Assembly: GCA_003094555.1 (NCBI GenBank)
Contig: NATW01000133.1
Span: 1 to 42,723 of the forward strand
DNA: 42,723 nt
Source: a gamma proteobacterium symbiont of Ctena orbiculata
GTDB lineage: Bacteria; Pseudomonadota; Gammaproteobacteria; Chromatiales; Chromatiaceae
Reading direction: 5' to 3'
In this document: positions 2,475 to 31,806 of the stretch, one piece after another
Numbering within the stretch: the first letter of the stretch is position 1
How the letters are laid out: every line of letters begins with the position of its first letter
Position numbers and translations under genes: made by a program
Notes under the pieces: generated by a model
Databases searched by the model: none
Told to the model about the DNA's origin: nothing
Seen by the model: the letters and a program-made list of their open reading frames with translations, nothing else

Positions 2475-2912
2475 TTATCTCATTTTCTCTCGCAAAAATC
2501 TGCCCAGTGACTGGTCGATACCAAGTACATGGTCGCGCAGCCAATGATTAAGAAATCGCAGTATCTCTACGCGCGAAACCTTTTGTCCTTCACGCAGTTG
2601 GTCGCGTACAGTCACAACCTGGTGCGAGAAATCGCGATGCTGAGCGATATGGGCCTGTGCCTCCTCGGGACAGGCCGTGGCGTAGTCATAGCGTTGCATC
2701 AGTGCCTCTTCGGTTTCAAAATGCATGAGGGCATAGCCGAGCAGATCTTTGACCACATGGCTCAGCAATATCTCACTGTCATCGTCAAGTAATTTTGTGT
2801 TCATCTCCTGCAGGGTCTCGACGAGATAGTGGTGCTGCTTATCGATTGAGTCAATGCCGGTGGCCATTGACTCCTCCCACTCGATTGCTTGGAAATGTTC
2901 TATTTGCGGCAT
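2475..2912 (-). CDS. Bacteriohemerythrin
   Basis: This 145-residue protein is a full-length single-domain hemerythrin, a four-helix bundle that binds O2 at a non-haem di-iron centre. The ligand set is complete: H27 in DKQH, H64 and E68 in HFETEE, H88 and H92 in HIAQH, and H128 and D133 in WLRDHVLGID. There is no signal peptide, so it acts in the cytoplasm. Its ATG lies inside the end of the giant kinase/GGDEF/EAL gene (13 bp overlap), which implies translational coupling and a shared transcript. Hemerythrins are often found near or fused to cyclic-di-GMP enzymes and chemoreceptors as oxygen sensors. A role in giving the neighbouring GGDEF-EAL protein an oxygen or redox input is my inference; oxygen storage or delivery is the alternative. 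Confidence 0.93.
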   Translation of the reverse strand: MPQIEHFQAIEWEESMATGIDSIDKQHHYLVETLQEMNTKLLDDDSEILLSHVVKDLLGYALMHFETEEALMQRYDYATACPEEAQAHIAQHRDFSHQVVTVRDQLREGQKVSRVEILRFLNHWLRDHVLGIDQSLGRFLREKMR

Positions 2913-5900
2913 ACGTTCAACTCCATAGCGTTAAATGCTGCATACCATTTCTCTAAGGTATGGGCAGGCATGGGCCGTCCCATCCCGTAACCCTGGACGA
3001 TGTGACAACCAATATCTACCAGATACTGAGCCTGTTCGGTGGTCTCCACGCCCTCGGCGACCACCTGCAGTCCGAAGGCCTGGCCAAGTCTGATCACGCC
3101 GACGACGATAGCCTCGTCCTCTGGGTCTTCGAGCATGTCACGCACGAAGGACTGATCGATCTTCAACTCTTGGATGCTCAGGCGGCGCAGATAGACCAGC
3201 GAGGAGTAGCCGGTGCCGAAGTCGTCCAGGGAGAAGCCGATTCCCATCCCCAAGCACTGCTTGATCACCTGTTCGATGGGTTCCAGCTCCTCTAAGTCGT
3301 TGGTCTCGACAATCTCTATCACCAGTTGATTTCGCGGCATCTGCGGCCAGATCGATGCGATGGTACTGCGCAGGTCATCGACAAAGGTGCGGTTCTTGAG
3401 ATGGCGCGGGAAGACATTGATGCTGATCGGCAGGGTAATCCCCTTTTCGTACCAGATCCTCGCCTGTTGTATAGCCTGCTCCATCACCCAGCGCCCCATG
3501 CGGAACGCTAGGATGTCGTTTTCGATCAGTGAGATAAACTCCTTGGGTCCCACCAGCCCGAGTACCGGATCATTCCAGCGCAGCAGCGCCTCTGCACCAA
3601 CCGTTTCACAGGTTGTATAGTCCACTTTTGGCTGGTAGTAGAGTTCAAACTGACCCCGCTCCAGCCCACGGCTTATCTTTTCCATCAGCTCGACCTGTGC
3701 GGATATCTGCCGTTCCAGTCGTGCGTCGAAGATCTGGTAGCGGTTCTTGCCGAGTTGTTTCGCCATGTACATGGCGTGGTCGGCATGGCGCAGCAGGCTG
3801 TCGGCATCCACATTATCGTCCGGATAGAGGGTCACGCCGATGCTGGCTGAGACCGACGCCATTTGATTATCCAGCAGCATGGGTTCGGCAACCTTGTTCA
3901 GCACCCGTTCCAGAGCATTGGCGCAATCGGTTTCGCTGCCAATGTCACTCCATAGCAACACGAACTCATCCCCCCCCAGGCGGGAGACGGTATCCTCGGC
4001 GCGCGACATCGTCTCCAGGCGGTGGGCGATCTCGATCAACATGCGATCCCCACCCTCGTGGCCGAACTGGTCATTGATTGGTTTGAAACCATCGAGATCG
4101 AGGTAGCAGACGGCAAGATTTTTTTCGTGACGCCGGGCATGGGCAATGGCCTGCTCCAGACGGTCACCGAGCAGACGCCGGTTGGGTACCGAGGTGAGCA
4201 TGTCGTAGTGGGCGATGCGGTCCAGGTCGGCTTCATGCTGTTTGATCATGCTGATATCCGTAAATGCGCCTACATAGTGTTGCAGGCGTCCCTGGTCGTC
4301 CTTGATAGCGACGATGGAGAGCAGCTCGGGAAAGATCTCTCCTGATTTACGTTGGTTCCAGATCTCTCCCTGCCACTCACCCGTGCTGTGGATCGATTGC
4401 CACATTTCGGCATAGAAAGTGGGGTTCTGTCGTCCGGCACTGAGGAAGCTTGGGTTTTGTCCGAGTGTCTCTTCGCGGCTGTAGCCGGTGAGGCGGGTGA
4501 AGGCTGGATTGATATCGATAATGCGGTTGTCGGCATCGCTGATGAGGATCCCTTCCTGACTGGTGGAGAAGACGCTGGCTGCCAAGCGCAGGTTCTCTTC
4601 GTCCACTTTACGTTGCGTGATGTCGAACATGGAAACAAAGACTTTGCTGAGCTTGTCTTCATAGCCGGGACAGACGGAAAAAGAGATGCTGACGTCACGG
4701 CGTTTTCCGCTCAGAGTTTGCACCACGCCATCGAGTATCAGCTCTGTCTCGCCTTTAGCGATGGCCATCAGTTCTTTACGAAAGGCATCATAGGATTCCG
4801 GGATGAAGGTCTTCGGCAGCCCATCGAAGAGCTCCGCCTTGCTGTCTGCTTCATGGAGTTCCAGGGTGGCGTTGTTGACATTGACGATGCGTACCAGTGC
4901 GGCGCACTCTTTTACACTCTCCGGATGTGCCAAGAGGTAGTCCTCGAGGTCATCGCCATAGTTCATTGTAAACTCGTCGAGGCGGGACTTGACGGCTGAA
5001 AAGTCCTCTTCCCGGACAGATACCGGCGAGTTTTCATATACCAGGCGAAAGCGCTCCTCGCTCTCGCGCAGGTCCCTTGTAATCAGCAGGTTGTTGAGGC
5101 CATCCGAAAAGCGATGGGCGATCTCCTGGAACAGCCTGGACTCCTGGTCGGTCCAGATACGATCGTGACTACACTGGTGGATACCAAAATGCCAGGGGCG
5201 GTCCACCTTGGGGCGTAGCGCTATCGCCAGTAGCGAGCGAACCCCCAGATTTTCTGTGATCTCTGCTGGAATAGGATGATCGGTTTCGGGTCCAAGACGT
5301 ATCGGTGTGTCTCTGTCGCGCATGGCGCGCAGGGTCTCTTCGATATGGGGGTGATAGGGCAGACGTCCGCCGGGTGCTAGGGTCGAGGGATACTCTGGCT
5401 TGCAGCGCTCCATGGGCATCCACCACTCGGCACTGGCATCGGGGTCACAGGGATATTGAAGATAGGTGCGGTCGCAGTCGAAGATATCCAGCACCTCATC
5501 CAGGGTGCGTTTCAATATCTCCTCTATGCTGCCTTCTGACTGCAGGACTTTATTGATCCGATCCAGACTCTTGAGAAAGTGTAAATGTTCTTGCCGCTCC
5601 TGTTCCGCTTGTTTTATCTCGGAGATGTCAACCAGGGAGACCAATACTCGGCCAAGACTCTGCTCATAACCGGAACAGACCGAGATGAAGATGTCGATGG
5701 GGTGTCGCTGTCCGGTCAGCGTCCTGATCTCCGATTCCACGCGTAAGTGGGTCTCACCACGCATCAGGGAAACGAGTATTTGGCGATAGGCTGGCACGGT
5801 TTCCGGTATGAAGATCTGTGGCAGATCTCTGAGAAACTCCTCCTTGGTGCCGGCCTGGTGAAGCCGCAGTGCGGCTTGATTGATATCGATGATGCGCACC

Positions 5901-8900
5901 AGCGCTGCACACTCGTGCGCCACTTGCGGGTGATCGACCAGGTAAGTGGCAAGGTCGTCTCCATACTCGGGGCGCAGCGATTCCAGATGTGCTTTGACGG
6001 CTGAGTAGTCCTCTTCCTGTATCGATACAGGGGAGCTCTCGAACACCAGGCGGAAACGCGCCTCGCTCTGGCGCATGTCGCGTGTGCTCAGTAGGCTGTT
6101 GAGGCCGTCGGAGAGGCGGTGTCCGATCTCCTCGAACAGACGCACCTCCTGGTCGCTCCAGCTACGTTCATGGGAACACTGCTGGAGACCGAACTGCCAG
6201 GGCTTGTCCGCTTTGGGGCGTAAAATGGTGGCCAGAACGGCGCGGGTGTTGTACTTCTCTCTGGCCAGCGGGGTTATGGGATAGTCCCCCTCCGGCCCGA
6301 TCCGCAGCGGGCGCTCCTTCTCAAGCAGGGCGCGCATCACGGCGGCCATCTCCTCTTCCATGGGCTGGGGGCCATGGGGACCGGCACCGGGGAACGCCGG
6401 TCGAGTACTCTCCAGGGGTACGGACCAGGTCTCGGCATCCGGGTCGCAGGGGTAGATCAGACAAGCGCGGTCACAATCGAAGATATCGAGCACCTCACTT
6501 AAGGCTGTGCTCATGGTTTTTTCGAAAGTGCCCTGTGTTTGCAGCACTCGATTGATCCGGTCAAGGCTCTCGAGAAAATGCATGTGATCCAGGCGTTCTA
6601 TCTCGGCCTGTTTTTGCTCGGTTATATCGTTGGAGATAACCAGTACGGACTGGACTTTACCATCGGTATTGAGTTCAGGGGCGAAACGGGAGTTGGCCCA
6701 ATGGACCTGCCCCTGTGCTGTACGGAAAGCGATCTCATCGGAAATCTCGAGCCCGCTATCAATCACCTGTTGCAGGTTGGCCATATAGGCTTTAGGGTCG
6801 AGTAGGGGTGAGTCCGTCTTGCTGGTTTTCTGCAGTACCTGATTCAAGGGTGCGGTGAACAGTTTTTGCAAGGCTGGATTGAGATAGACGCGGCGCAGAT
6901 TCAGGTCATAGCGTGCAATGTGATCCGGGGAGTTTTCCACCAGGGTACGGAACAGCTGTTCGCTGGCGGTCAGCTGTTGTTCGGCCCTTTTACGCTCCGA
7001 GATATCGGAGAAACTGACGATGACATGGGTGATGCCGCCCGTTTCATTAAACAGTGGTGCGGCGTTTACCAGGGCCCATAAGATCTCTATCCGGTCAGGA
7101 CGATCTATGCCGATAACAGTGTTTTGCAGCGCATGTTTTGACGCCAGTACCCGATTGACCGGGAACTCTTCCGGCGGCAGCAGGCTCTCATCCTCTCGCA
7201 GAAAGTGCCAGTCGGGATCGATGGCGGTCTTGCCCAACAACTGTGCTTCGCTCAGGCCGAGTAAATCCTGGGCCATGGTGTTGGCAGTGAGGATCTGTGT
7301 GTCAGTGCCGTGTACCACCACGGCGGCCTGGACCTTTTGCAGCAAGGCGCGGAACTTTTCCTCGCTCTCTCTACGGGTGTCGTAGAGATGGGAATTCTCC
7401 AGAGAGATCGCCGCCTGGGTAGCCAGGACATCCAGTACAGCCAGCCGGTTCTGGTTGAATACACCAGGGGTTTGGGAGTTTTCGAGGTATAAAACACCCG
7501 CCAGATTGCCGTGCCTTATGAGGGGCAGGCAAAGTATCGATTTCGCCTTTCCCTGGCGTAAGTAGGGGTCGTCAGCCATGGACTCGGGATGTGAGCTGTC
7601 ATCGATAATGATGCTCTTCAGGGTATGTGTGGTTGTATTGATGATGGAGTGAGCGCAATCTATGTCGGTTATTGGGGTGCGTACGGGTGTCACGAGAATG
7701 CCATTTTCTCCGGCCCTGGCCTCTGCCTCCACCTCCATCCCATCACTACCGGGAGTGGCCAACAGCCCCCTGTCCGCGCCGGCATTTTCAACTGCATTGA
7801 TCATCAGTGTTTGAATGAGTTTCGCCAGTTCGATTTCACTCGACACCGCTTGGGACGCCTTTACCATGGTGATTGCGTCGAGTCTGCCGTCCAGGCCAGT
7901 CTCAGCCTTATCGTCAGCGCCCTCAGGCATCAGCCAGTGGGGAAACTGCGCCGCTAAGTCACGAACCTTTGCCGCAGCCCCCCATTGCGCGTAAAGCGCA
8001 CTGGCCTGGAGCAGCTGAAGTCGGGATGACTCCTGCATGTCATGGCCGAGGTAACATTTGGCCGTCAATTCGTAGGCCAAGGCGGCTTCGTGAATGAACC
8101 CGTTATCCAGAGCGCCGGCGATCGCTTTTTCATAACCTTTCATGGCCTCGAGAATCCGACCCTCAACCCGAGCCTCCTCGGCCAGTATCAGGTCGTATTT
8201 GTGGCGGAAGTTTTCCCTGGCATGATCGGCCAAGTGGGAGAGTCGCGTCTTGCTCTCTTTCAGAACGGCTTTATCGGATCCTGGCAGGGATTTGTCGGCT
8301 CCCCGGCAGCGGCCCAGTACAGCCAGGCTGTGATAGAAAACCAGCTCACCCACCGCGATAAGACCCAGGGAGCTCTTTTCATGAGGTTTTGCCTTTTCAG
8401 CAAACTGGGTGGCTTCTTCACAGCGGCCGAACAGAACATTCAAAACGGTCTTTGCCGTATAGAACCAGAACAGCAGGGTATAGTTGTTGTTCTCGATGAG
8501 CGTGGGCAACAACTCATCTTCCTTGACATAGTCGCCATTGAGAGAGCCAGGGGTGCTCGAAGGCGATACAAGATTGTGCGTCGTTTGGCGGGTGATATTC
8601 AAGAATCCAACGGCATACCACTGCCGCAGTTTCTTCACCAGAGCGAGATGATAATCCACCGTGCTCTCCACCTGCTCCAGGGCAGTGCCGGAGAACAACA
8701 GGTTGTTGCAATAGTGGTTGGCGCAGTAGGCGACGTTTTCGATATCGCCATAAGCCAATCCGACTTCGACACCTTTCGCCATGTCGGGCAAAGCGCTGTT
8801 CAGCGGCTCTTTCCAGTGTCGGATACAGCTGTTGAACATATTCAAGGCCATGCTCTGCATTTCTGGCGCCTTGAGATCGGTGCAGAGAGTAAGGCCAGCC

Positions 8901-11731
8901 TTGCCGAACTGGTAGGCCTGTTCGACTTTTCCCTGATCGACCAACAGGACGCCAAACAGGCCATAGGCATAAATCGACGGCGCTGAGTTACCGAACTTTC
9001 TGCTCATTTCAACCATTGTGTAGGTTAAATTGCAGAGGGTTTTGGGATCGACGATGTAAGCTGAACCGATCAGCGTAATCATGATTTCCATGGCCATTAA
9101 CTGGACCGGGTCCGTCATCGGAGGAAGTTTATCAATCTCTGCGAGATCCACCGCTTCAGGGGGGGTGTCAGTAAGACTTATTCCCAATGCCTTGAGCTCG
9201 GACAGGCCGGTTTCGATCGACCGCCGGTAGTCGGGTATCTGCGTGTAAATCAGGACCTTGAGTCGACCCAGCTTGGCCCGGTCAAGGGGGGTGCGCGCAT
9301 GTGCCATGGCGTCGTCTGCCATAGCCAACGCGGCTTCGTATTGGGTCTTTAAATACTCCCCTTCAATCGCCTCGGCATACAGTGACAGGGCGAGGTCGTA
9401 ATCCATCGACCAGGGATCGGCCCCAAGGATCTTGAGCCCCTTGTTGAAATAGTCGGCAGCGGTGATAAAGGCTGCGGAGGCCTTTGCCTTTAGCCCGGCA
9501 CGCAGATTGAGGCGCACCAACCCTAGCCGTTTCTCCTTAAGGTCGATCAAATCAGCAGCGAGGTTGAGATGGTTTACAACGTCGAACAGATGCTCAGTCA
9601 GTTCAGTTGCAGAGAACAGTTCGAGTAACTGGTTACCGATGTGTAAATGAACACGGGGGCGCTCTTGTTCGAATACCAGTGAATAGGCGGCCTCCCGCAC
9701 TTTGTCGTGGAGGAAGCGATAGCCCTCTTTCTGGTGGAGCACCAGGCCAAGCTGCAGCGCTGCCCAGAGGGAGTCCTGCAGCGTCTCTTCCGATACGCCG
9801 TAAACCCTGGCCAGGGTGCTGGTCTTCAAGGTCATGCCAAGACAGGCGAACTGTTTAAGGGCCTTCTGGGTCTGATCGGGTAAGCTGTCCAGTTTGCCAA
9901 CCATTAGATCGATGACGTTGTCCGAGTAGCCCTTCAACTTGATACTGTCCAGATCCCAGCGCCACTCGGTTGTCAGCGGATTGAGGGTGAGCAGATTCTC
10001 ATCTGCCAGTGTGCTCAGAAGCTGCGTGATGAAAAAGGGATTGCCGCCAGTCTTCTCCTGTACCAGCTGCGCAAGGGGAAGAATATCTGCTCGCTTTGTG
10101 TGCAGCGTGTCGGCGATGAGTTGACATAGATCCTCTTCGACAAGTGGTTTTAACTCGATCTGTGAGAGCCGTACTCCGCTGTTGCGAATCGTCTCGATGC
10201 TGCGTCTCAGGGGATGGCTGGGGCCCACCTCGTTGTCCCGATAGGCCCCTAGCAGCAGCAGATGTGTGGTGCCGGGATTGGTCAGCAGATACTCAAGCAG
10301 CTGCAGGCTGGCGGCATCCAGCCACTGCAGATCATCCAGAAATAGGACTAGGGGATGTTCGGGCTGTGCAAAGACATTGATGATCTGTTGAATGACCCGG
10401 TTAAAGCGGTTTTGTGCGTCTTGGGGCGGCACTTCGGCAACCGGTGGCTGTTCACCGATAAGCGTGACCAGCTCAGGTACCAGGTCGATGACGAGCGAGG
10501 CGTTGGGCTCCAAGGCCTGGATTAACACATCCCGCCATTGGGCTAACTCCTCCTCCCCACTGCCCAGAATATGCCTAACAAGGCCCTGCAGCGCCTGGGC
10601 AAGGGTTGCGTAGGGGGTGTCGCGCTTGTATTGATCGAATTTACCTTCGGCATAGAGGGCGTTGGGTGTGACCAGGGAGCGATGCATCTCGTTGATCAAC
10701 GCCGATTTACCGATCCCGGCATAGCCCGATACCAGCACCATTTCCACGTTACCATTGCTGACGACCCGATCTACACTGCTGAGCAGTCTTTTCACTTCAT
10801 TGCTTCGCCCGTAGAGTTTTTCCGGGATCACCAGGTGGTTGGAGATGTCCTGCTTGCCCAGCTCGAAGGGCTCGATGGATTTTCCTTCGAGCCACTCATC
10901 CTGACAGCGTTGCAGATCAATCTTCAGCCCTTCGGCGGTCTGGTAACGCTCTTCCGCGGCCTTTGCCAGGAGTTTCATGACAAGCTTCGAGAGCGGGGCC
11001 GGGATTGTCGACCGCTGTTGCTGCGGGGGCTTAGGCTGGATGGCGATGTGGCTGTGCACATACTCCATGGCATCGCTGGCATCGAAAGGCAGTCGGCCGG
11101 TGAGCATTTGGTAGAAAACAACCCCCAGGGCATAGAGGTCGCTACGGGTATCTATGGAACGGTTCATACGGCCGGTCTGCTCCGGCGCCATATAGGCAAG
11201 TGTGCCGGCTATCTCCTGGGGATCCGCGAGTGCCTGCCGTTCCCGGGAGAGCCTAGAGGCGATCCCGAATCCGCTAAGTCTGATCCCGCCGTCGGCAGTC
11301 ACAAAGATGTTTGCCGGGGTAATATCCTTATGCACCAACCCACAGCGATGGATCTCCGCCAATGCCGAGGTGATGCCCACGGCGAGGGTCAGGAAGTGAT
11401 CAATTTCCAAGGGCGCCTTCAGCAACGTTGAAAGCGGTTGGCAGGCACAGTCCTCCAGGATCAGTGCGGTCAGGCTTGTGCTGCGTTCTATTTTACACGG
11501 TCTTACCACATATTCCGTATTCAGATCGGATGCGATACCGAATTCGTGTTCGAGTTGATGGATGAGTTTCGCTGATGGGTTAGAGGAAACAGGGGCCTTG
11601 ATCAGAACGGCCTGTTTGTCATGCGTGCATGCACGAATGATACGAAACGCATCTGTCTCGCTGAGCAGAGATAGGTCCGTGTATCCCAGGGTTGCGAGTT
11701 CATTTTGCACAAGATGTAATAAACAGTGCAT
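2900..11731 (-). CDS. Giant Ser/Thr kinase-like, AAA ATPase, GAF/PAS, GGDEF-EAL protein
   Basis: This is one uninterrupted 2943-residue reading frame. Domains in order: protein kinase fold (about 20-275; K45, HKD at 134-136, N141); AAA/ORC-type ATPase (about 300-600; Walker A G336-S343, Walker B LFLDD at 463-467, YRDNEV at 497-502); helical TPR-like region (about 680-1265); GAF (about 1290-1446); PAS (about 1455-1582); PAS (about 1588-1708); two tandem GAF-like plus PAS-like units (about 1716-2048 and 2049-2381); PAS (about 2385-2500); GGDEF (2503-2670; GGDEF at 2586-2590, inhibitory RxxD at 2577-2580); EAL (about 2680-2935; E2714-A-L, DDFGTG at 2836-2841, VAEGVE). Both cyclic-di-GMP enzymes look intact. 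The kinase DFG is GFG (G154), so metal binding and kinase activity are doubtful. Kinase-ATPase-GAF proteins of this type usually end in a histidine kinase; this one ends in GGDEF-EAL. No signal peptide or clear membrane segment. It heads the run with hemerythrin and REC-PAS-GAF. GAGAAG precedes the ATG by 6 bases. Confidence 0.93.
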   Translation of the reverse strand: MHCLLHLVQNELATLGYTDLSLLSETDAFRIIRACTHDKQAVLIKAPVSSNPSAKLIHQLEHEFGIASDLNTEYVVRPCKIERSTSLTALILEDCACQPLSTLLKAPLEIDHFLTLAVGITSALAEIHRCGLVHKDITPANIFVTADGGIRLSGFGIASRLSRERQALADPQEIAGTLAYMAPEQTGRMNRSIDTRSDLYALGVVFYQMLTGRLPFDASDAMEYVHSHIAIQPKPPQQQRSTIPAPLSKLVMKLLAKAAEERYQTAEGLKIDLQRCQDEWLEGKSIEPFELGKQDISNHLVIPEKLYGRSNEVKRLLSSVDRVVSNGNVEMVLVSGYAGIGKSALINEMHRSLVTPNALYAEGKFDQYKRDTPYATLAQALQGLVRHILGSGEEELAQWRDVLIQALEPNASLVIDLVPELVTLIGEQPPVAEVPPQDAQNRFNRVIQQIINVFAQPEHPLVLFLDDLQWLDAASLQLLEYLLTNPGTTHLLLLGAYRDNEVGPSHPLRRSIETIRNSGVRLSQIELKPLVEEDLCQLIADTLHTKRADILPLAQLVQEKTGGNPFFITQLLSTLADENLLTLNPLTTEWRWDLDSIKLKGYSDNVIDLMVGKLDSLPDQTQKALKQFACLGMTLKTSTLARVYGVSEETLQDSLWAALQLGLVLHQKEGYRFLHDKVREAAYSLVFEQERPRVHLHIGNQLLELFSATELTEHLFDVVNHLNLAADLIDLKEKRLGLVRLNLRAGLKAKASAAFITAADYFNKGLKILGADPWSMDYDLALSLYAEAIEGEYLKTQYEAALAMADDAMAHARTPLDRAKLGRLKVLIYTQIPDYRRSIETGLSELKALGISLTDTPPEAVDLAEIDKLPPMTDPVQLMAMEIMITLIGSAYIVDPKTLCNLTYTMVEMSRKFGNSAPSIYAYGLFGVLLVDQGKVEQAYQFGKAGLTLCTDLKAPEMQSMALNMFNSCIRHWKEPLNSALPDMAKGVEVGLAYGDIENVAYCANHYCNNLLFSGTALEQVESTVDYHLALVKKLRQWYAVGFLNITRQTTHNLVSPSSTPGSLNGDYVKEDELLPTLIENNNYTLLFWFYTAKTVLNVLFGRCEEATQFAEKAKPHEKSSLGLIAVGELVFYHSLAVLGRCRGADKSLPGSDKAVLKESKTRLSHLADHARENFRHKYDLILAEEARVEGRILEAMKGYEKAIAGALDNGFIHEAALAYELTAKCYLGHDMQESSRLQLLQASALYAQWGAAAKVRDLAAQFPHWLMPEGADDKAETGLDGRLDAITMVKASQAVSSEIELAKLIQTLMINAVENAGADRGLLATPGSDGMEVEAEARAGENGILVTPVRTPITDIDCAHSIINTTTHTLKSIIIDDSSHPESMADDPYLRQGKAKSILCLPLIRHGNLAGVLYLENSQTPGVFNQNRLAVLDVLATQAAISLENSHLYDTRRESEEKFRALLQKVQAAVVVHGTDTQILTANTMAQDLLGLSEAQLLGKTAIDPDWHFLREDESLLPPEEFPVNRVLASKHALQNTVIGIDRPDRIEILWALVNAAPLFNETGGITHVIVSFSDISERKRAEQQLTASEQLFRTLVENSPDHIARYDLNLRRVYLNPALQKLFTAPLNQVLQKTSKTDSPLLDPKAYMANLQQVIDSGLEISDEIAFRTAQGQVHWANSRFAPELNTDGKVQSVLVISNDITEQKQAEIERLDHMHFLESLDRINRVLQTQGTFEKTMSTALSEVLDIFDCDRACLIYPCDPDAETWSVPLESTRPAFPGAGPHGPQPMEEEMAAVMRALLEKERPLRIGPEGDYPITPLAREKYNTRAVLATILRPKADKPWQFGLQQCSHERSWSDQEVRLFEEIGHRLSDGLNSLLSTRDMRQSEARFRLVFESSPVSIQEEDYSAVKAHLESLRPEYGDDLATYLVDHPQVAHECAALVRIIDINQAALRLHQAGTKEEFLRDLPQIFIPETVPAYRQILVSLMRGETHLRVESEIRTLTGQRHPIDIFISVCSGYEQSLGRVLVSLVDISEIKQAEQERQEHLHFLKSLDRINKVLQSEGSIEEILKRTLDEVLDIFDCDRTYLQYPCDPDASAEWWMPMERCKPEYPSTLAPGGRLPYHPHIEETLRAMRDRDTPIRLGPETDHPIPAEITENLGVRSLLAIALRPKVDRPWHFGIHQCSHDRIWTDQESRLFQEIAHRFSDGLNNLLITRDLRESEERFRLVYENSPVSVREEDFSAVKSRLDEFTMNYGDDLEDYLLAHPESVKECAALVRIVNVNNATLELHEADSKAELFDGLPKTFIPESYDAFRKELMAIAKGETELILDGVVQTLSGKRRDVSISFSVCPGYEDKLSKVFVSMFDITQRKVDEENLRLAASVFSTSQEGILISDADNRIIDINPAFTRLTGYSREETLGQNPSFLSAGRQNPTFYAEMWQSIHSTGEWQGEIWNQRKSGEIFPELLSIVAIKDDQGRLQHYVGAFTDISMIKQHEADLDRIAHYDMLTSVPNRRLLGDRLEQAIAHARRHEKNLAVCYLDLDGFKPINDQFGHEGGDRMLIEIAHRLETMSRAEDTVSRLGGDEFVLLWSDIGSETDCANALERVLNKVAEPMLLDNQMASVSASIGVTLYPDDNVDADSLLRHADHAMYMAKQLGKNRYQIFDARLERQISAQVELMEKISRGLERGQFELYYQPKVDYTTCETVGAEALLRWNDPVLGLVGPKEFISLIENDILAFRMGRWVMEQAIQQARIWYEKGITLPISINVFPRHLKNRTFVDDLRSTIASIWPQMPRNQLVIEIVETNDLEELEPIEQVIKQCLGMGIGFSLDDFGTGYSSLVYLRRLSIQELKIDQSFVRDMLEDPEDEAIVVGVIRLGQAFGLQVVAEGVETTEQAQYLVDIGCHIVQGYGMGRPMPAHTLEKWYAAFNAMELNVCRK
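4589..6586 (-). repeat. In-frame tandem duplication of a GAF-PAS unit within the giant gene
   Basis: Residues about 1716-2048 and 2049-2381 of the giant protein are two copies of one unit of about 333 residues (about 1 kb each, boundary near 5587/5588). Shared landmarks at a constant offset of 333-335 residues include HFLxSLDRINxVLQ, EVLDIFDCDR, YPCDPDA, LRPKxDxPWxFGxxQCSH, RLVxExSPVSxxEED and ECAALVRI. The first half is GAF-like and the second PAS-like. The copies have diverged at many positions, so this is an old fixed duplication and not an assembly artefact. Confidence 0.88.
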
Positions 11732-12370
11732 CTGCTGCTTCTCAACCTGGTAATTATGTTGTCATTGCTTCGTATGCAGGGTGGTAAGCCAACCATTACC
11801 CTTACAATCCGTTGCGTCATGTAATCCTATCAACGACTCCTTACTTTATTTATAGACGTTACGCTTAAAATAGGAACAACTTATAATGCGTATATCGTAG
11901 CGTACAGCTGCCTCCTGTCCTAAAACTACCAGGCGGCCGCAGATTATGAGAGCATAAAAAATGAGGCACAAATGGTGTGGCAGGGCTAATGGGTTTGCTT
12001 ACCCTTGTCCTTGCTGCGGAATCCTGCCTATCGCTGCAGCATATCCTTATATTCTAGCTGCACTTTTTCCAATCACAAACGTATAGTTCTTAGGTTATTG
12101 ACGAACCTAAATCCTTATAGATTTTTTTTATCAATAGATAGTTATTCCTGATTTACATCGAATTATTTCTGTCTCTGATTAGGGAAAATGTGTGGCATAA
12201 GTTGCTAATTCCACCCTTAATCTAGTAAAAGGTGATCGGTTACACGTCCCCTTTAAGTCACTTTTAAAAAACTTTTGCTTAACTTGATCGGGTAGACTGT
12301 GAACCAATTTCCGACGGAATCGTAGAGTGAGAATTATAGGCAATGCGGTTATGCATGGAGTGAATAAAGA
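11732..12370. other. 639-bp divergent intergenic region
   Basis: This AT-rich region separates the start of the giant kinase/GGDEF gene (minus) from the start of the DsrL-like gene (plus), so it must hold both promoters. I see no credible gene in it; the short frames lack ribosome sites and family motifs. A TATAAT lies at 11882-11887 on the plus strand without a good -35. An inverted repeat lies at 12090-12110, followed by a T8 run near 12123. GGAGTG precedes the ATG at 12371 by 8 bases. Confidence 0.6.
12090..12110. repeat. Perfect 7-bp inverted repeat, possible operator
   Basis: TTAGGTT (12090-12096) and AACCTAA (12104-12110) are perfect inverted arms around a 7-base spacer, about 260 bp before the DsrL-like gene. 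The geometry (centres 14 bp apart) fits a dimeric regulator site. A T-rich stretch 13 bases later also allows a weak terminator. Nothing in the sequence decides between these. Confidence 0.35.
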
Positions 12371-14302
12371 ATGAGTGATACCGACCCAACATATCGACGT
12401 TATGCGGATGGCGACGACCAACCTTACGACTGGAATAGGGATGTCGTAAGCCAGGGGGAGTCTTACATCTGTCCGACCTATATCCAGCGCACGCCGCCAT
12501 GTCAAAATGCCTGCCCTTCAGGGCACGATATTCGTGGTTGGTTATCCATCGTGCGCGGACTGGACAAACCCGAGGGCGACAAGCCCTGGCAGCAGTACGC
12601 CTTCGAGCGTATGACATTGGCCAATCCCTTCCCGGCGATCATGGGGCGCGTATGTCCGGCACCCTGCCAGGAGGGTTGTAACCGTAACAGCCTGGACGGT
12701 AGTGTCGGCATCAACTCCATCGAGCAATATATTGGGGATTGGGCGCGCCAGAATAATCTTGCCTTCAGCAAGCCGGAAGCCGACTCCGGAAAGCGGGTGG
12801 CGATTATCGGCGGTGGTCCCGCCGGCCTGGCAGCGGCGTTGTTTCTGCGTCGTCTCGGTCACCGGTCCACCATCTTTGAGGAACACAACGCCCTGGGGGG
12901 GCAGATGGTATTCGGTATTCCCGGCTACCGTATTCCCCGGGATGTGCTGGAACATGAGATCCAGCGAATCCTCGATGTGGGTGGTATCGATGTGAAACTG
13001 AATACCCGTGTGGGGCGGGAGGTTAAGGTCGAAGCCCTGGACAAAGAATACCACGCCATCTTCTGGAGCGTCGGCACCGTGGTGGGCAAGCCGCTGCGCG
13101 TCGAAGGCGGCGAGGCCCCCAACTGCGTGGATGGGATGACCTTCCTGAAGGCCTTCAACGATGGTTCTCTGAAATATCTCGATGGTCGTATCCTGGTGAT
13201 TGGTGGTGGCGACACCGCTATGGATGTGGCAGCAGTGGCCAAGCGTATCGGGGAAGTGGCCGAACTGGATGCCGCGGAGTGCCCACAGGCTGTGTTTGAC
13301 GGATCCGGCAGCCAGCGCGATGAGCAGATAACCAAGCGCAGCGATTCCGATTGCTGGTTGGTCTATCGACGTCCCATCACCAAGGCCCCCTGCACCAAGC
13401 ATGAACTGGAGGCCTGTATCGCCGAAGGAGTGGAGGTCCATGACAGCCTGGCCCCCCTCCAGGTCATGCTGGATGACCAGGGCCATGCCTGTGCCTTGAA
13501 AGTGCAACCGGTTGACTGGTCCTCCGGCAAGATGGAAGCCAATGGCGAGCCCTTCGAAATCGAGTGCAGATTGATTGTCGCGGCAACAGGACAGACCGGT
13601 GACTACGAAGGTATCGATGGTATTGCCAACGACTGGAACCTGATCGATGCCGATCGAAGCATGCAAGTCAAAGGAAAGAGCGGCCATTTCGTAGGCGGCG
13701 ATGCTGTTAATCCGCACCTATTGACAACCGCCATCGGCCAAGCCTCCATTGCCGTGCAGGGCATACACAGCTTTCTGCTTGGCGAAGCGGTCGGCGACCG
13801 CCCGAAAGTGGAAGGTCACCACTTCGATCTTCTCCAGGAGCTGGCGCAGAAAGATCTATCGCCGGAAGAGTACAATCATGGTGAGACCTGGGGCACCAAC
13901 AGCGCCAACTGGTCTGTTCACAACTTCGAGAATCGCGCCGATGCAGACGTGGTGAAGACGAATGCCATGTTCACGGGGCACTTTGCATACCAGCCGTTGA
14001 ATGCCCGGGATGAGCTGGATGTGAATGTATCCAATGTGTTAGGCAGCATGATCGAGCGCTTCAACGGCCTCAACGAGGAGACGGCGGTCACCGAGTCGAA
14101 ACGCTGCATGAGTTGCGGCTTCTGCTTCGAGTGCGACAACTGCGTCATCTACTGTCCGCAGGATGCCGTTACCCGCGTTAAAAAGGGTGAACGCGTGATG
14201 GGCCGCTATGTGGAGACCGACTACGGTAAGTGTGTCGGCTGTCATATCTGCAAAGAGGTCTGTCCCACCGGCTATATCGAGATGGGGTTGGGGCAGTACT
14301 GA
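12371..14302 (+). CDS. DsrL-like iron-sulfur flavoprotein, NAD(P)H:acceptor oxidoreductase
   Basis: This 643-residue protein belongs to the glutamate synthase small-subunit family and has the extra C-terminal ferredoxin module seen in DsrL. Seen: an N-terminal Fe-S helical domain with C34, C44, C48 and C95, C99, C103; an FAD-binding GGGPAG at about 147-152; a second dinucleotide fold with VIGGGDTAMD; and a C-terminal ferredoxin with clusters of cysteines at 579-595 and at 621, 624, 627, 631 (CVGCHICKEVCP). DsrL in sulfur oxidisers passes electrons between the siroheam sulfite reductase DsrAB and NAD(P). Here no other dsr gene is in view and the gene stands alone between two giant sensor genes on the other strand. 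It may therefore be the main DsrL encoded apart, a second copy, or a related oxidoreductase with another partner. GGAG lies upstream of the ATG. The end converges with the next gene, 44 bp away. Confidence 0.75.
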   Translation: MSDTDPTYRRYADGDDQPYDWNRDVVSQGESYICPTYIQRTPPCQNACPSGHDIRGWLSIVRGLDKPEGDKPWQQYAFERMTLANPFPAIMGRVCPAPCQEGCNRNSLDGSVGINSIEQYIGDWARQNNLAFSKPEADSGKRVAIIGGGPAGLAAALFLRRLGHRSTIFEEHNALGGQMVFGIPGYRIPRDVLEHEIQRILDVGGIDVKLNTRVGREVKVEALDKEYHAIFWSVGTVVGKPLRVEGGEAPNCVDGMTFLKAFNDGSLKYLDGRILVIGGGDTAMDVAAVAKRIGEVAELDAAECPQAVFDGSGSQRDEQITKRSDSDCWLVYRRPITKAPCTKHELEACIAEGVEVHDSLAPLQVMLDDQGHACALKVQPVDWSSGKMEANGEPFEIECRLIVAATGQTGDYEGIDGIANDWNLIDADRSMQVKGKSGHFVGGDAVNPHLLTTAIGQASIAVQGIHSFLLGEAVGDRPKVEGHHFDLLQELAQKDLSPEEYNHGETWGTNSANWSVHNFENRADADVVKTNAMFTGHFAYQPLNARDELDVNVSNVLGSMIERFNGLNEETAVTESKRCMSCGFCFECDNCVIYCPQDAVTRVKKGERVMGRYVETDYGKCVGCHICKEVCPTGYIEMGLGQY

Positions 14303-14346
14303 ATAGATCTGTTGAAACAGGCTTGGGTGTTTGGGTGACTACACCT

Positions 14347-17300
14347 TCACTGCTCCCCAGCGTCACGGGGTGAAGATCCAGGCTGGTGGTTGGGCTGGTG
14401 TTCGACATCCGTGTGGATCAACTGCAGAATCTTGCCGAACTGGAAATCCCTGGCCGCGGAGAACAGAGCCTGCGCCACCGAGGGAGCGCGGGGGCGTATT
14501 TCGTCGATGACCCGGTTTACCGCATCGCTGTCGAGCCGGACCAGCGCCTGTTCCAAATTGTTCAGCAGTTCGTTGGGCAGATCGGCCAAGGCGGCCTCAT
14601 CCAATTGCACCTCGGCGGTGGAAGCCGCCTCCTTCACCGGTTCTTCCGAGTAGATGAAGCGAACGTCCAGATGGCGCACCAGGGCATCCAATAGATCGGT
14701 CTCCGTATAGGGCTTACGGATGAAGTCGTCACACCCTGCCGCAAGGATCTCCCTGCGCTCCTCCTCCAACGCATGGGCGGTGATGGCGACAATGCAGGGT
14801 TGTGCGCCCGCATCGCTGGCCTTGATCCGCCGGGTCGCCTCCAGTCCGTCCATGACCGGCATACGGATATCCATGAAGATCAGCTGGGGATGCCATTGAT
14901 CGAATTGGGCAACCGCCTCCTCTCCGTTGACCGCCTCATGCAATTCAAAGCCTAGCGGTTCGAGCAGTCTGTGCAGAAGTAGACGGTTCTCCGGCTGATC
15001 TTCGACATTAAGAATGCGATAGGTCGGTTGCCCCGGCTCCAATCCGACGACACGCAGCTGCTTTTCTTCAGCCAGGTCTGGTGCTTTGGCCTTATGGGCC
15101 TCTTGCATGGGTAGTTCGACGCGGAAGCGTGTTCCCTTGCCTGGTCTGCTCTTTACCGAGATCTTGCCGTCCATCAGTTGCACAAACTGATGCACGATGG
15201 TTAGTCCCAGACCGGTGCCGCCTTTGTTACTCCCCGTAGGAAGTTGTACAAAGGGTTTGAACAGACTTTTCTGATCCACTTCACTGATACCGGGGCCGGT
15301 GTCTTCGACCTCTATGAACAGGTGGTGTGTAGATTTCAGTGTGTGCAGACGGACGGTAACGCTGCCTTTATCAGTGAACTTCACCGCGTTACTCACCAGG
15401 TTGACCAGAATCTGCCGCATGCGTGCCTCGTCGCCGCTGACGTAGCGAGGGAGATCCAATGCCTGATCCAGGGTTAGTTGCAGTTCCTTCTGTTGCGCCC
15501 GCAGCAGCATCATTTCCACCACCTCGCGCACCAGTTCATGCAGGTCGAAAGTGGCGATCTTCAGCTGCAGCTTGCCCGCCTCAATCTTGGCGATCTCCAG
15601 CACATCGTTGATCAGTTTGAGCAGGTATTTGCCGCTGTTGTTGATGATCTCCAGGTTATCGCGCTGGCTGGAATTCAAGGCCTTGTCCCTGCGCATCAGC
15701 TGGGAGAAGCCGAGAATCGCGTTGAGCGGAGTGCGCAGCTCATGGCTCATATTCGTGAGAAAGGTGCTCTTAGCCTTATTCGCATCTTCTGCGGCGTCCC
15801 GCGCCAGTAACAACTCTTCTGTCCGTTGCTGCACCGTCTCTTCCAAATGATCCTTGTATTGCCGCATCTCTTGTTCCGACAGTTTGCGTTCGGTGATATC
15901 GATATTGGTGCCAATCATGCGCAGTGGCTTGCCGTCATCGTCCATGATTGTCTTCGAGTCCGCTTTGATATGGCGGATGGAACCATCAGGTCTGAGAATA
16001 CGGAATTCAGGTGCGTATTCGTGTTCACCGCGCAACGCGGCTTGAATCTCTCCTTCCGCATAGCTTTTATCCTCGGGATGGAGGGTACGCGCCCATGCGT
16101 CATAGGCGCCGCCGAAGTCTTCCTTCCGAATGCCGTACAGTTTATACATCGAATCATCCATTTTCAGTTCGTTTTTGACCACATCCCAGTCCCATACGCC
16201 AACTCCCGCGGCGCGTGTGGCGAGTTGCAGTCGTTCCGATGTAAGACGCAGTTCATCCGTGGCACGCTTGCGTTCAGTCATGCGCCACATGCTCTCCATC
16301 ATCAGTGTGAGTTGTTGGACATCGGTTTCGTTATACGCCGTCTCCTTGTTACCGATGCCAGCCAGCAGCACTAGATTCCCGCTGATGAAGACAGGCAGAT
16401 TGATATGACGGGTGAGGCGGAAATGACCTTCCGGTGTGTCATTATTCCACTGACTGGCAGGCTTGTGGTCGTTGCTGATGATGGGACGGCGCTGGCTGAT
16501 AGCCTCCCGCCACAGGCTGTACGCTGTCAGTGGATAATGCAGCGGTGCCCGGGAAATGGTGTATTTTGGTTTGGCCCTATTGGACCATATCCGAACACTC
16601 ATGGAGGTCTCATCTTCGTTTACAAACCCCAGGTAGCCTAGCCTGCTACCGGTGAGGCGAATGGCTTCGTCAAGGGTATACGCCATGATTTCCTGGATGG
16701 TCTCCTCAGACATCTGGTTGATTCTCAACAGGGCGACAGTACCTTCCATGCGCTCTTTGAGGCCTTCATAGAGGTGGGCGTTTTCAATGGAAATGGCTGC
16801 CTGAGAGGACAAAATATTGAGTAATTCTATGCGATCTGAGGTAAAGGCCCCGGCACTGAGATTATTTTCCAAATAGATGATGCCGATGAGGCGCCCTTGG
16901 TTGTGTATGGGGCTGCACAAAACAGATTTTATTCTGTTATTTTGAATATAGCGATCTGTAGTGTAATCCCCGTCAAGGGTTGCATCGTTGAGTATCACAC
17001 TTTTTCCTGTTCTGTTGACATAGGTCACGATGCCTACACATAGATTCTTGAGTTGATCCAGTTTCAGAGAATCGACTTTTGATATCGTGTGTGGTTTGAC
17101 GGATGCTATTATCTCGACACTAAGGTCACCCTCTCTGTTTAAGATAAAGAAACCTCGCTGAGCCCCTGCATTTTCAATGATAATGGCCATTAACTTTTCC
17201 AGCAGTTGTGACAAAACAACTTCACTGGATAGAGTCTGTGTGGATTTGATGATGGATTCGTAGTCAAGGGCGAACTTCGCTGACGGTATGGTAGCGGAAG

Positions 17301-20300
17301 TGGTTGAGCTTTCGTCTGTAATCGATATTTCTTCTTCTATCCGCTTTCTGGAAAATTGTGGATATTTCTGCTCCAGATGGGTGACTTTTGCCAGGGCTCC
17401 CCATTTGTAATAAAAATGTTGTGCTTCCTTGAAATATATTTTAGCGATTTTATCTTTTTGATTGGCCAGATAAAACTTCCCGGCCAGTTCATTGGCAAGA
17501 GCTACGTTATTTATATATCTATTCTCCATAGCCGATTCTATGGCTTTGTCATAAAGGTCCATCGCTTGTGTAATATTACGATCGATTCGGGCTTGTTCGG
17601 CTTGAATCAGGAGGAACTTATGCTCAAAATTTTCTGGACATTGCTTAGCCCAAAGGGAGAATTTTTTAGTGTTTTCTTTTATCGTTTCTAGCACTCCCTG
17701 TTTCTTTTTTTTATCACATTCATTAACAATGGCAAATGCTGATAGAGTGTGATAGAACAAACAAACGGTTTCTTCAAAAAGCGTTGCGATAAATTGCAAC
17801 CACTCTTGCCGTTCTGATCCGACAGTATAGGCTTCCTCGTATTCTTCGAACAAAAAGCAGATTTGTGATTTATAAGAGACGTAATAGCCCAGGCCGTGTC
17901 CGAAAGAAGCTTGCTGCCATTTTTCGAGATATTCGCTTTCAGTGAACTCCGCGCAATCGAAATTTGTTTTAAACTCTTTCGTGTTGCTAAGGTTATTTAG
18001 GAATTCCCTAAAGAATTTTTCTTCGTCTGCAAAAATTGAATTGGTTTTGTTTAAAAATTCAAGGCTGCGTTCATTTTCCTCGCTGGCCTTGGCAATTTGA
18101 TCGCCGACAGCCAGGATTGTCTTAGGAATCATGACTCTTGCATATCCGGAATATGTATACTCGCCATTTTCGATACCGGCCTTGAATGCCTGGTGCAATA
18201 TCTTGAGTACCTCCTTGCTGTGAAACATCCAATGTATGGTAAATATCGAAGCGATAAAGGTCGTCAGTGATTTAATTTGTTGATTGTCATAACGCTCATT
18301 CAAGGCCAGGCTCAACTGCCCTGACTCATACCCTAAGTTATAGTCTTGCAGAACCAAGGTCGTTATTACTGGAAACCAACAGAATCCAACTGCGGAGAAA
18401 TTATTGTATCCATATTCTATGGAGTTATTGACGATATCAAAAATTACGTAAGGGAACATTGGTGGTAGGGAGATGTAGGTGGCATCGCTTAAGTTTGAAA
18501 GAATTCTGATCAAATAACTCTTGTCTTTGTCCTGGGTATCAGGCAGATCATACAAGTCAGAGAATTTTCTGTTTTTCATCAAATGATGAAATCTCTTGAC
18601 CGCGAGGTCCATTGCCAGCTGACTCTTTTCTGGTGTGCTGATGTCCGGTAATGTATAATTGAACAATTGCAGACACTCCAAACCAAGATCAAAGCTCTTT
18701 TTATAATCACCAAGCTGGGCGAATTGAATAATTATTATCAAGTAAGCTTCAGCTTTGTCATATCGATCAGCTGCTTTCTCAAGCAGGAAATGTATATCTT
18801 TTTCCGATTGTTCAATGTTTCCGCTTAAAAACTGCGCTTGTGCTCTGTGTTTGTATAATTCTAGGGCAAGAGAATAGTGGTTTTCCCAGGCATCGACAGG
18901 TAATAAACGAGTTCCGTGGTTGAGAAAGTCAGCTGATTGGTGATAGGCGGATGATTTTTTCGCTTTTATGCCGGCCCTCAAGTTCAATTTGGCCAGGTCA
19001 ATTTTCTCTCTTTTTAACTGAATAAGGTCGCTGCCCTGATTGAGGTGGCCGACAATATCAAATAGATTATTTTCAATATCCTGTTTTTGAGTATTCAGTA
19101 AGATATGTTTTCCGATCAGGTAATGGATTGAATTTCTGTTTTCTTTTGGAATAAGCGAATATGCTGCTTGTTGTATGCGGTCATGCTGGAATCTGTAGGT
19201 TATATGTTCTTTGATTGACGATTCAATTTGTTCGTTTGTCATACTCTCGGCGACCACCTTGTAAGCATCGCTGGTCGGGTAAATCAATCCGTCACGGATT
19301 GGGGAATCGAGTTCACTGGCGATAGTTGCTTGTTGTGCGCTTGTGACGATTGAAAGGGTTTTCAGATCAAAATTGTTGCCAATGCTTGCGGCAAATTTAA
19401 GTGTCTGCTGAACATTCTTTGGATACTTTCTGATACTGTTTGCCAACAACTCAACGACATTTTCCGTAAGCCCCTGTTTTTTGATTTCGTCTATATCCCA
19501 TTGCCACTTTTGGTCGTTCTGATTGAAATAGACTAATTTTTCACTGTGAAGCGTTTTTAAAAACTGAATGACAAAAAAAGGATTTCCGTTCGTCTTGCTG
19601 TTCAACAATTTAACCAATGAGGCGGCGGATCTTGGATGGCAATGAAATGTGTCCGTTGTTAATTGCAGGATGTCTCTCCTTGATAATGGATTTAGAACGA
19701 TTTTCTCGATTGCGGTGCCGGCCTTTTCAATTTCTTCAAGTGTAATAATCAAGGAGTGAGAGGCGCCGACCTCGTTATCGCGATATGCTCCAAGTATCAG
19801 GAAATGATGTAACTCAGTGCTTGTGAGCAGTAATTTCAGCAGATTAAAAGAGGCCATGTCTCCCCACTGCAGGTCATCCAGAAAGATAACAAGGGGGTGG
19901 TCCTCTTTTGCAAACACATTGATAAATTTGGAGAATAGCTGATTGAATCTGTTTTGCGATTCGATTGGTGGCAGTGAGGGTATGGCCGGTTGTCTATCTA
20001 TAATGAGTTCCAGTTCGGGGATGACGTCGATGATTACCTTGCCGTAAGGATCAAGGGCCTCTAATAACTGAAATTTCCAACTATTGAGTTTGCTTGAGCT
20101 CTCTGTGAGAATTTGGTTTATCAGGTTCTGGAAAGCTTCTATGATGGCGCTATAAGGTACGTCGCGATTTAACTGATCAAATTTACCCGATATAAAATAG
20201 CCTCGTTCCTGAACCAGTGGTTTATGTATTTCATTGACAAGTACGGATTTTCCGATCCCGGGATGGCCGGAAACCGTCATTAGCATCTTATCTTTGTTGC

Positions 20301-21258: not shown

Positions 21259-21782
21259 TAGACCCCACCAGCTGCGTCGCTTAATTCTATTTGCAAGTAA
21301 CCAGGTTCAGCGTCATGGTATTCAGGAGCAGAGGGGGGCAGCGATAACATGTTGTGTGTGGTGACCGGCAGCGTCACCAGCAGAGGGTTCACAAAAGGTT
21401 GTATCTGTTTCATCATTCACCTCAAACCGATCTGAGACATGGCAAGCGCTAGGAATCCATCCCGCAGGCAGGTCGCCAGGTGAATCGTGTCTATTGGTAT
21501 TGTTTGATATTGGAGTCGTGCATACATGTATCCGATTGGTTATACGGGAGAGATTTGACCTCTGTGATCACTTCGGTCGCATCGATAACAGGGCCGTTGT
21601 CGAACAGTTTCGCGGTCCTGGAGTGGCTACTCCATTTCAGGCGATTGATTCAACAACAATTACCGGATAACTGCGACGGGAGGGAAGTTTATCAGCTGTC
21701 TCCTCTTTCTTATTTGAAGCATAGCTCATACTCAATGGTCTGGCCATCGCATCGGAGGATTCGAAGGCGCAGGTATCCCTTA
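21259..21782. other. 524-bp intergenic region without a convincing gene
   Basis: The region lies between two minus-strand genes: downstream of the sigma-54 regulator and upstream of the giant hybrid kinase, whose promoter it should contain. A plus-strand frame at 21480-21788 (102 codons) has no ribosome site, no family motif and runs into the 3' end of the regulator gene; I do not count it. I see no clear terminator, RNA gene or repeat. Confidence 0.5.
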
Positions 21783-31419: not shown

Positions 31420-31427
31420 CGGTATAT
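31415..31427. promoter_or_regulatory. Operator overlapping the toxin-antitoxin -10
   Basis: ATATAC-G-GTATAT is a perfect inverted repeat with a single central base, lying across the -10 element and start point. Xre-type antitoxins repress their own operon through such sites, so this is the likely autoregulatory operator. Confidence 0.5.
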
Positions 31428-31446
31428 GCATCACTTGGAGAGAGGC

Positions 31447-31806
31447 ATGTACGCCCATAGCATTAAGAAACCTGATGAATCCGCCACTCTTACCAAGGCG
31501 CTGCTTAATGCCGGCCGGGCATTGGGCCTGACCCAGGATGATCTGGGTAAAGTGGTCGGTAGGGATCGCACGGTCTTTCACCGGGCCGGTGTGGATCCCC
31601 GCAGCAAGTCGGGAGAACTGGCCCTGTTACTGGTCCGCCTATACCGCAGTCTCTACGCCCTGGTGGGGGGCAAGGAGGGGGATTTGAAACACTGGATGAG
31701 GACTGCGAACCGCCATACAGGGGGGGTTCCTGTGGATCAGATCAAATCGGTATCGGGTCTGATCCGGGTGGTTGAATACCTGGATGCGATGCGCGGCAAG
31801 AACTGA
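31447..31806 (+). CDS. Xre/MbcA/ParS-type antitoxin (DUF2384)
   Basis: This 119-residue protein has an N-terminal helix-turn-helix-like region (LTQDDLGKVVGRDRTVF) and the C-terminal DUF2384 toxin-binding domain (LKHWMRTANRHTGGVP, SGLIRVVEYLDAMRG). It should neutralise the RES toxin that follows and repress the operon. I start it at ATG 31447, which has GGAGAG 6 bases upstream; the upstream ATG at 31426 coincides with the predicted transcription start. Its TGA overlaps the toxin ATG, giving translational coupling. Confidence 0.88.
   Translation: MYAHSIKKPDESATLTKALLNAGRALGLTQDDLGKVVGRDRTVFHRAGVDPRSKSGELALLLVRLYRSLYALVGGKEGDLKHWMRTANRHTGGVPVDQIKSVSGLIRVVEYLDAMRGKN

Follow-up and report, generated by a model that had tools for sequence, protein, structure and literature searches.

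Which end of a signalling chain has been exchanged when a kinase-like and ATPase front, of the kind usually found on histidine kinases (HKs), stands ahead of domains for making and breaking cyclic-di-GMP (c-di-GMP)? This question is raised by P0001, a gene on contig NATW01000133.1 (assembly GCA_003094555.1) of a gammaproteobacterial symbiont of Ctena orbiculata; the whole 42,723-nucleotide stretch analysed is referred to here as the window. An earlier sequence-only reading had proposed that P0001 and a neighbouring HK-ended paralogue, P0002, display an exchange of outputs. As judged by sequence comparison, the exchange that can be read side by side is that of the input end, at a fixed c-di-GMP output. 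P0001 is interpreted here, with modest confidence, as a cytosolic receptor of the STAND type with c-di-GMP output, in which an exchangeable front would sit on a constant PAS-GGDEF-EAL/hemerythrin part.

The gene and its domain chain

P0001 occupies 2900..11731 on the minus strand, as do all of its features given below, and is a single unbroken open reading frame (ORF) with an ATG start, 2943 amino acids (aa) and zero internal stops. Pfam placed Pkinase at aa 37-269 (4.6e-32), AAA_16 at aa 305-493 (9.1e-42) and a first GAF domain at aa 1302-1444 (7400..7828, also present in the structure model), followed by a PAS/GAF array, GGDEF at aa 2507-2664 (5.3e-46) and EAL at aa 2684-2920 (7.6e-63). No HATPase or HisKA match was obtained by Pfam or by family-profile typing. 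The sensory array that joins the first GAF to GGDEF (aa 1458-2494; 4250..7360) has seven segments, where eight further sensory domains had been counted: PAS, PAS, GAF, a weak PAS under the Pfam cut-off, GAF, a segment without Pfam match and a strong last PAS. One GAF plus PAS-like unit is present twice, as segments 3-4 and 5-6, with 51% identity between the copies over 332 residues; despite this clear protein repeat, no DNA direct repeats were found within the gene at the settings used.

A sequencing or assembly error that merged two genes, which might be suspected in a draft assembly of 193 contigs, is so improbable that we exclude it, because a second genome, G401, encodes the full chain in an orthologue of 2635 aa, located on one contig of 4.46 Mb, with the kinase-to-EAL order preserved and a bacteriohemerythrin gene behind it. 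With its open frame, Pfam matches and orthologue, P0001 is a real, intact protein by its sequence, and the proposed single Pkinase-AAA-GAF-GGDEF-EAL chain of 2943 residues holds.

The output domains (GGDEF, 3740..4213; EAL, 2972..3682) were delimited by Pfam, motifs and a PDB search. The GGDEF domain has an RxxD inhibitory site (I-site) five residues ahead of GGDEF (residue 2577, RAEDTVSRLGGDEF). The EAL domain keeps EALLR at 2714, DDFGTGYSS at 2836, KIDQSF at 2857, AEGVE at 2892 and QGYG at 2913, motifs whose individual roles in EAL phosphodiesterases are established. The motif check agrees with the claim that both domains retain their key residues, and the cyclase and phosphodiesterase motifs are intact as sequence. 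Within the chain, the ratio of non-synonymous to synonymous divergence (dN/dS) is lowest in the GGDEF domain and the last PAS.

The STAND nucleotide-binding module (aa ~301-767; 9431..10831) was identified by Pfam, motifs, alignment and the structure model. It carries Walker A GYAGIGKS at 336, Walker B LVLFLDDLQW at 461 and GNPFF at 563, and seven of its positions (G46, G49, G51, K52, D176, Q179 and W180 in alignment numbering) are invariant in 46 aligned rows. The model predicts a core of nucleotide-binding, helical and winged-helix parts followed by a repeat superstructure, a fold like that of MalT and Apaf-1. Both the motifs and the model are consistent with the STAND-like ATPase proposed earlier, and the domain calls and motifs place this front and GGDEF-EAL in one chain. 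The helical-repeat, TPR-like superstructure, or arm (aa ~741-1290; 7862..9511), was delimited by comparison with G401 and the structure model. Its earlier description as TPR stands in part: Pfam gave no TPR match in P0001, but the model predicts a helical repeat and TPR_CHK1 is present below threshold in the G401 orthologue (24 bits; cut-off 27). In a PDB profile search, 13 of the 14 matches fell on the GAF part and one on the ATPase (2qby, E 0.0044), and GAF-domain entries occupied most rows of the structural re-alignment of Foldseek's list.

Two fronts at one site

The last 13 bases of P0001 are shared with the start of a bacteriohemerythrin gene (2475..2912, minus strand; NF033749, 104.4 bits, above the cut-off of 84), and bacteriohemerythrin also lies behind the GGDEF-EAL gene in G401 and in the sister genome G019. 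The middle of the C-terminal half was detected at E 1e-60 in the window's genome (G000), G401 and G019 only, among the 22 genus genomes searched. The G019 locus presents the flanking genes and the hemerythrin in the window's order, and its protein is 68% identical to P0001 from aa 1437 onward, which comprises the PAS-GGDEF-EAL half. Ahead of this shared half, the G019 protein carries a HAMP domain along with two predicted membrane segments, with no kinase-STAND front, and a Peripla_BP_4 gene lies directly upstream.

A decaying relic of the kinase front is retained in G019. The 5' leader and first ~27 codons of P0001 (11652..11812) align with an orthologous 161 bp of that genome at 79% identity (E 2e-33). 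The relic consists of the old leader and ~50 codons of the kinase N-lobe, located between the Peripla_BP_4 gene and the shared upstream region. Its coding part is gap-free in the alignment, and 25 of the 50 residues are identical to P0001, with dN 0.37 and dS 0.44, as against dN/dS of 0.07-0.21 in the domains of the C-terminal half. The relic frame is open into the binding-protein gene, and therefore the old leader may still serve that gene. The simplest account of these sequences is an ancestor with the kinase front, which was then replaced in place in G019.

The comparison with G401 presents a mosaic front in an otherwise orthologous locus, the flanks of which are 86-92% identical where aligned, although G401 was classed as the same species. 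The two proteins share 88% of residues in the kinase-like domain, where dS is 0.29, and 63% in the ATPase. For the arm the figure is 26%, with dS saturated; it is 53% for the first GAF and lies at 75-84% in the stretch that runs from the last PAS through EAL. At third codon positions, identity is 91-73% over aa 1-400, 42-49% over aa 401-700, 25-40% over aa 701-1400 and 41-63% beyond. One GAF-PAS unit is missing from the G401 orthologue, with zero aligned residues at P0001 aa 1751-2000. On this sequence pattern, exchange is the likeliest explanation for the low identity of the arm.

These observations suggest, at a confidence just short of even, that the locus is an input-exchange site, in which a constant PAS-GGDEF-EAL and bacteriohemerythrin output would receive fronts swapped at the linker after the first GAF, while the arm and the GAF-PAS copy number turn over. 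The kinase-STAND-GAF front would, in the same proposal, be a plug-in controller placed on at least seven kinds of output, and on c-di-GMP domains several times independently.

Outputs of the front across the family

The tails carried by the front were typed in four samples. In the class sample of 369 genomes, searched with the front at E 1e-60 and with at most two candidates scored per genome, the front was found in 16 genomes, with 25 frames among the matches listed: 13 ended in HK, nine in GGDEF or GGDEF-EAL (P0001 included) and two in adenylate/guanylate cyclase, and one was cut by a contig end. Tails for c-di-GMP therefore make up 9 of the 24 classifiable frames. Seven of the 22 genus genomes had the front, in 10 frames, with seven GGDEF or GGDEF-EAL tails and three HK tails (one on a probable contaminant contig). 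The front was matched in 41 of 398 genomes of the phylum sample, where the window's genome was set aside and tails were typed at 40 of the remaining 44 places (those left out include an internal-stop frame, a 761-aa frame and a two-piece gene). There were 30 HK tails (24 called from our own profiles, some of them weak, and six more from Pfam), five cyclase tails, three GGDEF tails, all in the window's class, and two too short to type. The best 80 named loci by similarity to P0001 gave 86 frames, of which 63 were assigned to HK by our own profiles, several weakly, and 23 had no assignment; no GGDEF match was found among these 86. Pfam applied to six of the 23 unassigned frames returned HK, cyclase, SpoIIE, STAS and, twice, AAA_35. 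The fronts with SpoIIE, STAS or AAA_35 ends are L125, L129, L123 and L132.

Since the typed tails comprise HK, cyclase, GGDEF, SpoIIE, STAS and AAA_35 ends, the kinase-STAND-GAF front is, by its sequence associations, a general controller, usually of HKs, with GGDEF outputs recurring in the window's class. That known members mostly end in HK was borne out, HK being the commonest tail in the class, phylum and best-80 samples. The supposed rarity of the architecture was not, given 9 of 24 class frames and 7 of 10 genus frames with GGDEF or GGDEF-EAL ends. Two candidate statements were rejected accordingly: that the architecture is unique, as KIN-AAA-TPR-GAF-GGDEF(-EAL) chains recur in genus and class, and that the fusion is very rare, which had been drawn from the zero GGDEF count among the best 80 named loci and is wrong for the window's own class. 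No description of a kinase-STAND front on GGDEF was found in the open-access PMC literature, judged by titles and abstract openings.

In a quick tree of 122 fronts, 16 changes were counted for the assigned outputs and 10 for c-di-GMP versus other outputs, numbers that long branches make inexact. The front of P0001 and G401 nests with support 99 in a clade of 42 rows (33 HK, seven unassigned and this pair), and therefore either an output exchange or a front capture happened in its history. Four further chains of the same genus and class (L180 in G007, L204 in G038, L208 in G215 and L191 in G172; 1907-2041 aa) have the front and both output domains as in P0001. In L180, L204 and L208, however, GGDEF comes almost directly after the first GAF, and the EAL match of L191 is weaker (6e-30). 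A single clade of P0001, G401, L204 and L208 was rejected (p-AU 1.5e-6, approximately unbiased test, on 34 chosen rows from which four long-branched c-di-GMP rows were left out), which points to a separate origin for L204 and L208.

Two genomes hold several such chains. The small genome G038 has at least five (L201, L202, L203 and L204 among them), four ending in adenylate/guanylate cyclase and one in GGDEF-EAL. A third chain of the window's genome, L181 (G000:C89 5296-11679), has 2128 aa and an HK-REC end.

The protein-kinase-like domain (10925..11623; Pfam, motifs and alignment) keeps the VLIK Lys45, the His-Lys-Asp136 (HKD at 134) and Asn141. The Asp of DFG is replaced by Gly154 (LSGFG at 152), and the G401 orthologue likewise has LSGFG. 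The Pkinase profile match starts only at profile position 22, which we take to lie past the Gly-rich loop. The domain is therefore probably a pseudokinase, as judged from these residues, and its earlier naming as a Ser/Thr kinase does not hold, the DFG Asp being absent from P0001 and many relatives. Of 81 HK-labelled frames that have an HKD motif, 26 show GFG in place of DFG (the pattern could not read 12 of the 81), so that loss of DFG is a feature of part of the family and is not tied to the c-di-GMP output. In the family alignment, this Asp is Gly in many members with differing outputs, which would form a pseudokinase branch. Annotations as 'trifunctional' kinases may often hide pseudokinases.

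Mechanism, rival histories and neighbouring genes

STAND proteins have an established switch behaviour, and the mechanism proposed for P0001 is drawn by analogy with them. Binding of a partner or ligand would fall to the pseudokinase and to the arm of helical repeats. Nucleotide exchange in the STAND module, as in MalT or Apaf-1, may then convert an ADP-bound resting state to an ATP-bound, self-assembling state. Assembly would set the dimer register of GGDEF and EAL through the GAF/PAS array, and thereby the balance of synthesis and breakdown, with the I-site providing product feedback. The PAS/GAF array and the overlapping bacteriohemerythrin gene could add a redox or oxygen input. In G019, a membrane/HAMP sensor with a periplasmic binding protein would have taken over the position of the kinase-STAND front.

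Several observations weigh against this interpretation. The nSTAND profiles fall below their cut-offs (nSTAND1 17.7 bits against 27.1, nSTAND6 16.7 against 27.7), the accepted match being AAA_16, and a hydropathy scan gave three windows at 1.7 in the front, which we take as buried helices. The proposed functional link between hemerythrin and P0001 is drawn from the order of genes in three genomes. Among named NCBIfam models, the nearest is that of a phosphodiesterase, the DibA equivalog, which matches aa 2370-2927 at 599.8 bits, far under its cut-off of 980, and net c-di-GMP synthesis is therefore not implied. GGDEF-EAL tandems with both motif sets may also have one silent domain. Finally, trees of the TPR arm do not prove its import: P0001 and G401 as sisters gave p-AU 0.059, and P0001 grouped with the clade that holds G401 gave 0.39.

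The last result bears on the possibility that the arm, as a ligand-binding part, simply diverged rapidly without exchange, which we consider unlikely. A gradual drop in identity from aa 400 to 1000, without one sharp step, and a sister relation that is not quite rejected would suit it; against it, dS is 0.15-0.43 over aa 1-400 while synonymous sites are saturated in the arm, and the two arms find their best matches in different members of the family. A far-clade origin of the arm, suggested by best matches and a quick tree, is not claimed because later AU tests failed to uphold it; a first version of the clade test, on a differently drawn set, had given p-AU 9e-35. An enzymatically silent or merely c-di-GMP-binding output, with P0001 as a scaffold or effector, is rather improbable. 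The checked motif residues are intact and the GGDEF domain lies in the most constrained part of the chain by dN/dS, although degenerate or silent GGDEF and EAL domains are common according to passages of one source (PMC9239204).

As for the history of the chain, it is quite possible, if still doubtful, that a pre-existing PAS-GGDEF-EAL/hemerythrin operon captured the front, rather than that an HK tail was replaced. PAS-GGDEF-EAL chains are abundant in the genus, the C-terminal half carries a different front in G019, and the nearest kin of the front, among the matches listed, are in other classes, as expected for an acquired piece. The relic, however, shows that a kinase front preceded the binding-protein front in G019, which therefore does not show a pre-capture state, and the restriction of the C-half middle to three of the 22 genus genomes also argues against capture. 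The opposite history, in which an HK-ended paralogue lost its tail and gained GGDEF-EAL while P0002 preserved the original, appears improbable. It would agree with a P0001 front placed in a clade that is HK-ended wherever assigned, and with P0002 (14347..21258, minus strand; kinase-STAND-GAF-GAF-PAS-HisKA-HATPase-REC by Pfam) lying 2.6 kb away. The two fronts, however, are 41% identical and sit in different parts of the front tree, that of P0001 is closer (up to 54%) to fronts in alpha- and betaproteobacterial plasmid records, and P0002 is absent from the orthologous site in both G401 and G019, where other genes stand between the flanks. For these reasons P0002, a distant family member used for comparison only, was rejected as sister or donor of P0001; it does keep its HK end, as had been stated, but the pair is not a side-by-side output swap.

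The preferred interpretation, a STAND-type receptor with an exchangeable front, can be set beside known systems. Kinase-STAND-TPR-GAF-HKs, recorded on plasmids as 'trifunctional serine/threonine-protein kinase/ATP-binding protein/sensor histidine kinase', have the kinase-AAA_16-repeats-GAF order of P0001, whose front is up to 54% identical to them over 743 residues; P0001 differs by ending in GGDEF-EAL after seven more sensory segments, without HisKA/HATPase. In MalT, Apaf-1 and the TPR-sensor STAND protein 6mfv, a nucleotide-binding module is followed by helical repeats, as modelled for P0001; these are not known to carry a kinase-like domain ahead of that module or to act through c-di-GMP. 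The output half is closest in the PDB to MorA/DosP-type GGDEF-EAL proteins (4rnh, 'Motility regulator', 3.4e-93; DosP, ~1e-62), the front ends of which are unrelated. Candida albicans CHK1, of the fungal CHK1-type HKs, has a front of S_Tkc, AAA-16 and GAF like that of P0001, and differs in being eukaryotic with an HK-REC output. According to passages of PMC9069115, removal of its kinase and AAA parts abolished function and removal of GAF as well partly restored it, and therefore the front and GAF modulate the output. In E. coli RdcA/RdcB-DgcE, passages of PMC6510439 describe an NTPase that governs diguanylate cyclase activity, there a dynamin-like GTPase in a separate protein, whereas the STAND module of P0001 is in the same chain.

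If the interpretation is true, a single polypeptide would place c-di-GMP turnover under the direct control of a STAND switch. Such an input type is unnamed in the main-text passages of a 2022 census of c-di-GMP sensors (PMC8846402), in which 'STAND', 'ATPase' and 'serine' occur 0 times and 'AAA' only within a DOI. The family may serve as a natural experiment: one site presents a single output under two alternative fronts, and the kinase-STAND front itself is found on many outputs, so that one could test whether the sign and gain of a GGDEF-EAL pair are set by the input modules.

Some features of the surrounding DNA were also recorded. Downstream of the hemerythrin gene, a REC-PAS-GAF protein without output domain (995-2452) is missing at that site in G401, and its GAF part resembles P0002. 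The only other copy of P0002 lies on L175 (G020:C110, 9772 bp), which is 99.87% identical to window 12140-21911 over the entire contig. This contig is probably a contaminant, because G020 has the flanking oxidoreductase in a version of its own, 82% identical, on contig C19. The interval between the oxidoreductase and a sigma-54 activator, at window 14303-21782 and correspondingly in L200 and L174, appears to be an insertion hot spot. It holds P0002 in the window; G401 has there a 1049-aa ORF with WD40 repeats and a start that by eye looks TIR-like, and G019 has small ORFs, of which one carries HTH_17. At window 31426-32555, a 126-aa ORF shares one base with a following RES-domain protein, and the two look like a RES/Xre-type toxin-antitoxin pair with a putative antitoxin.
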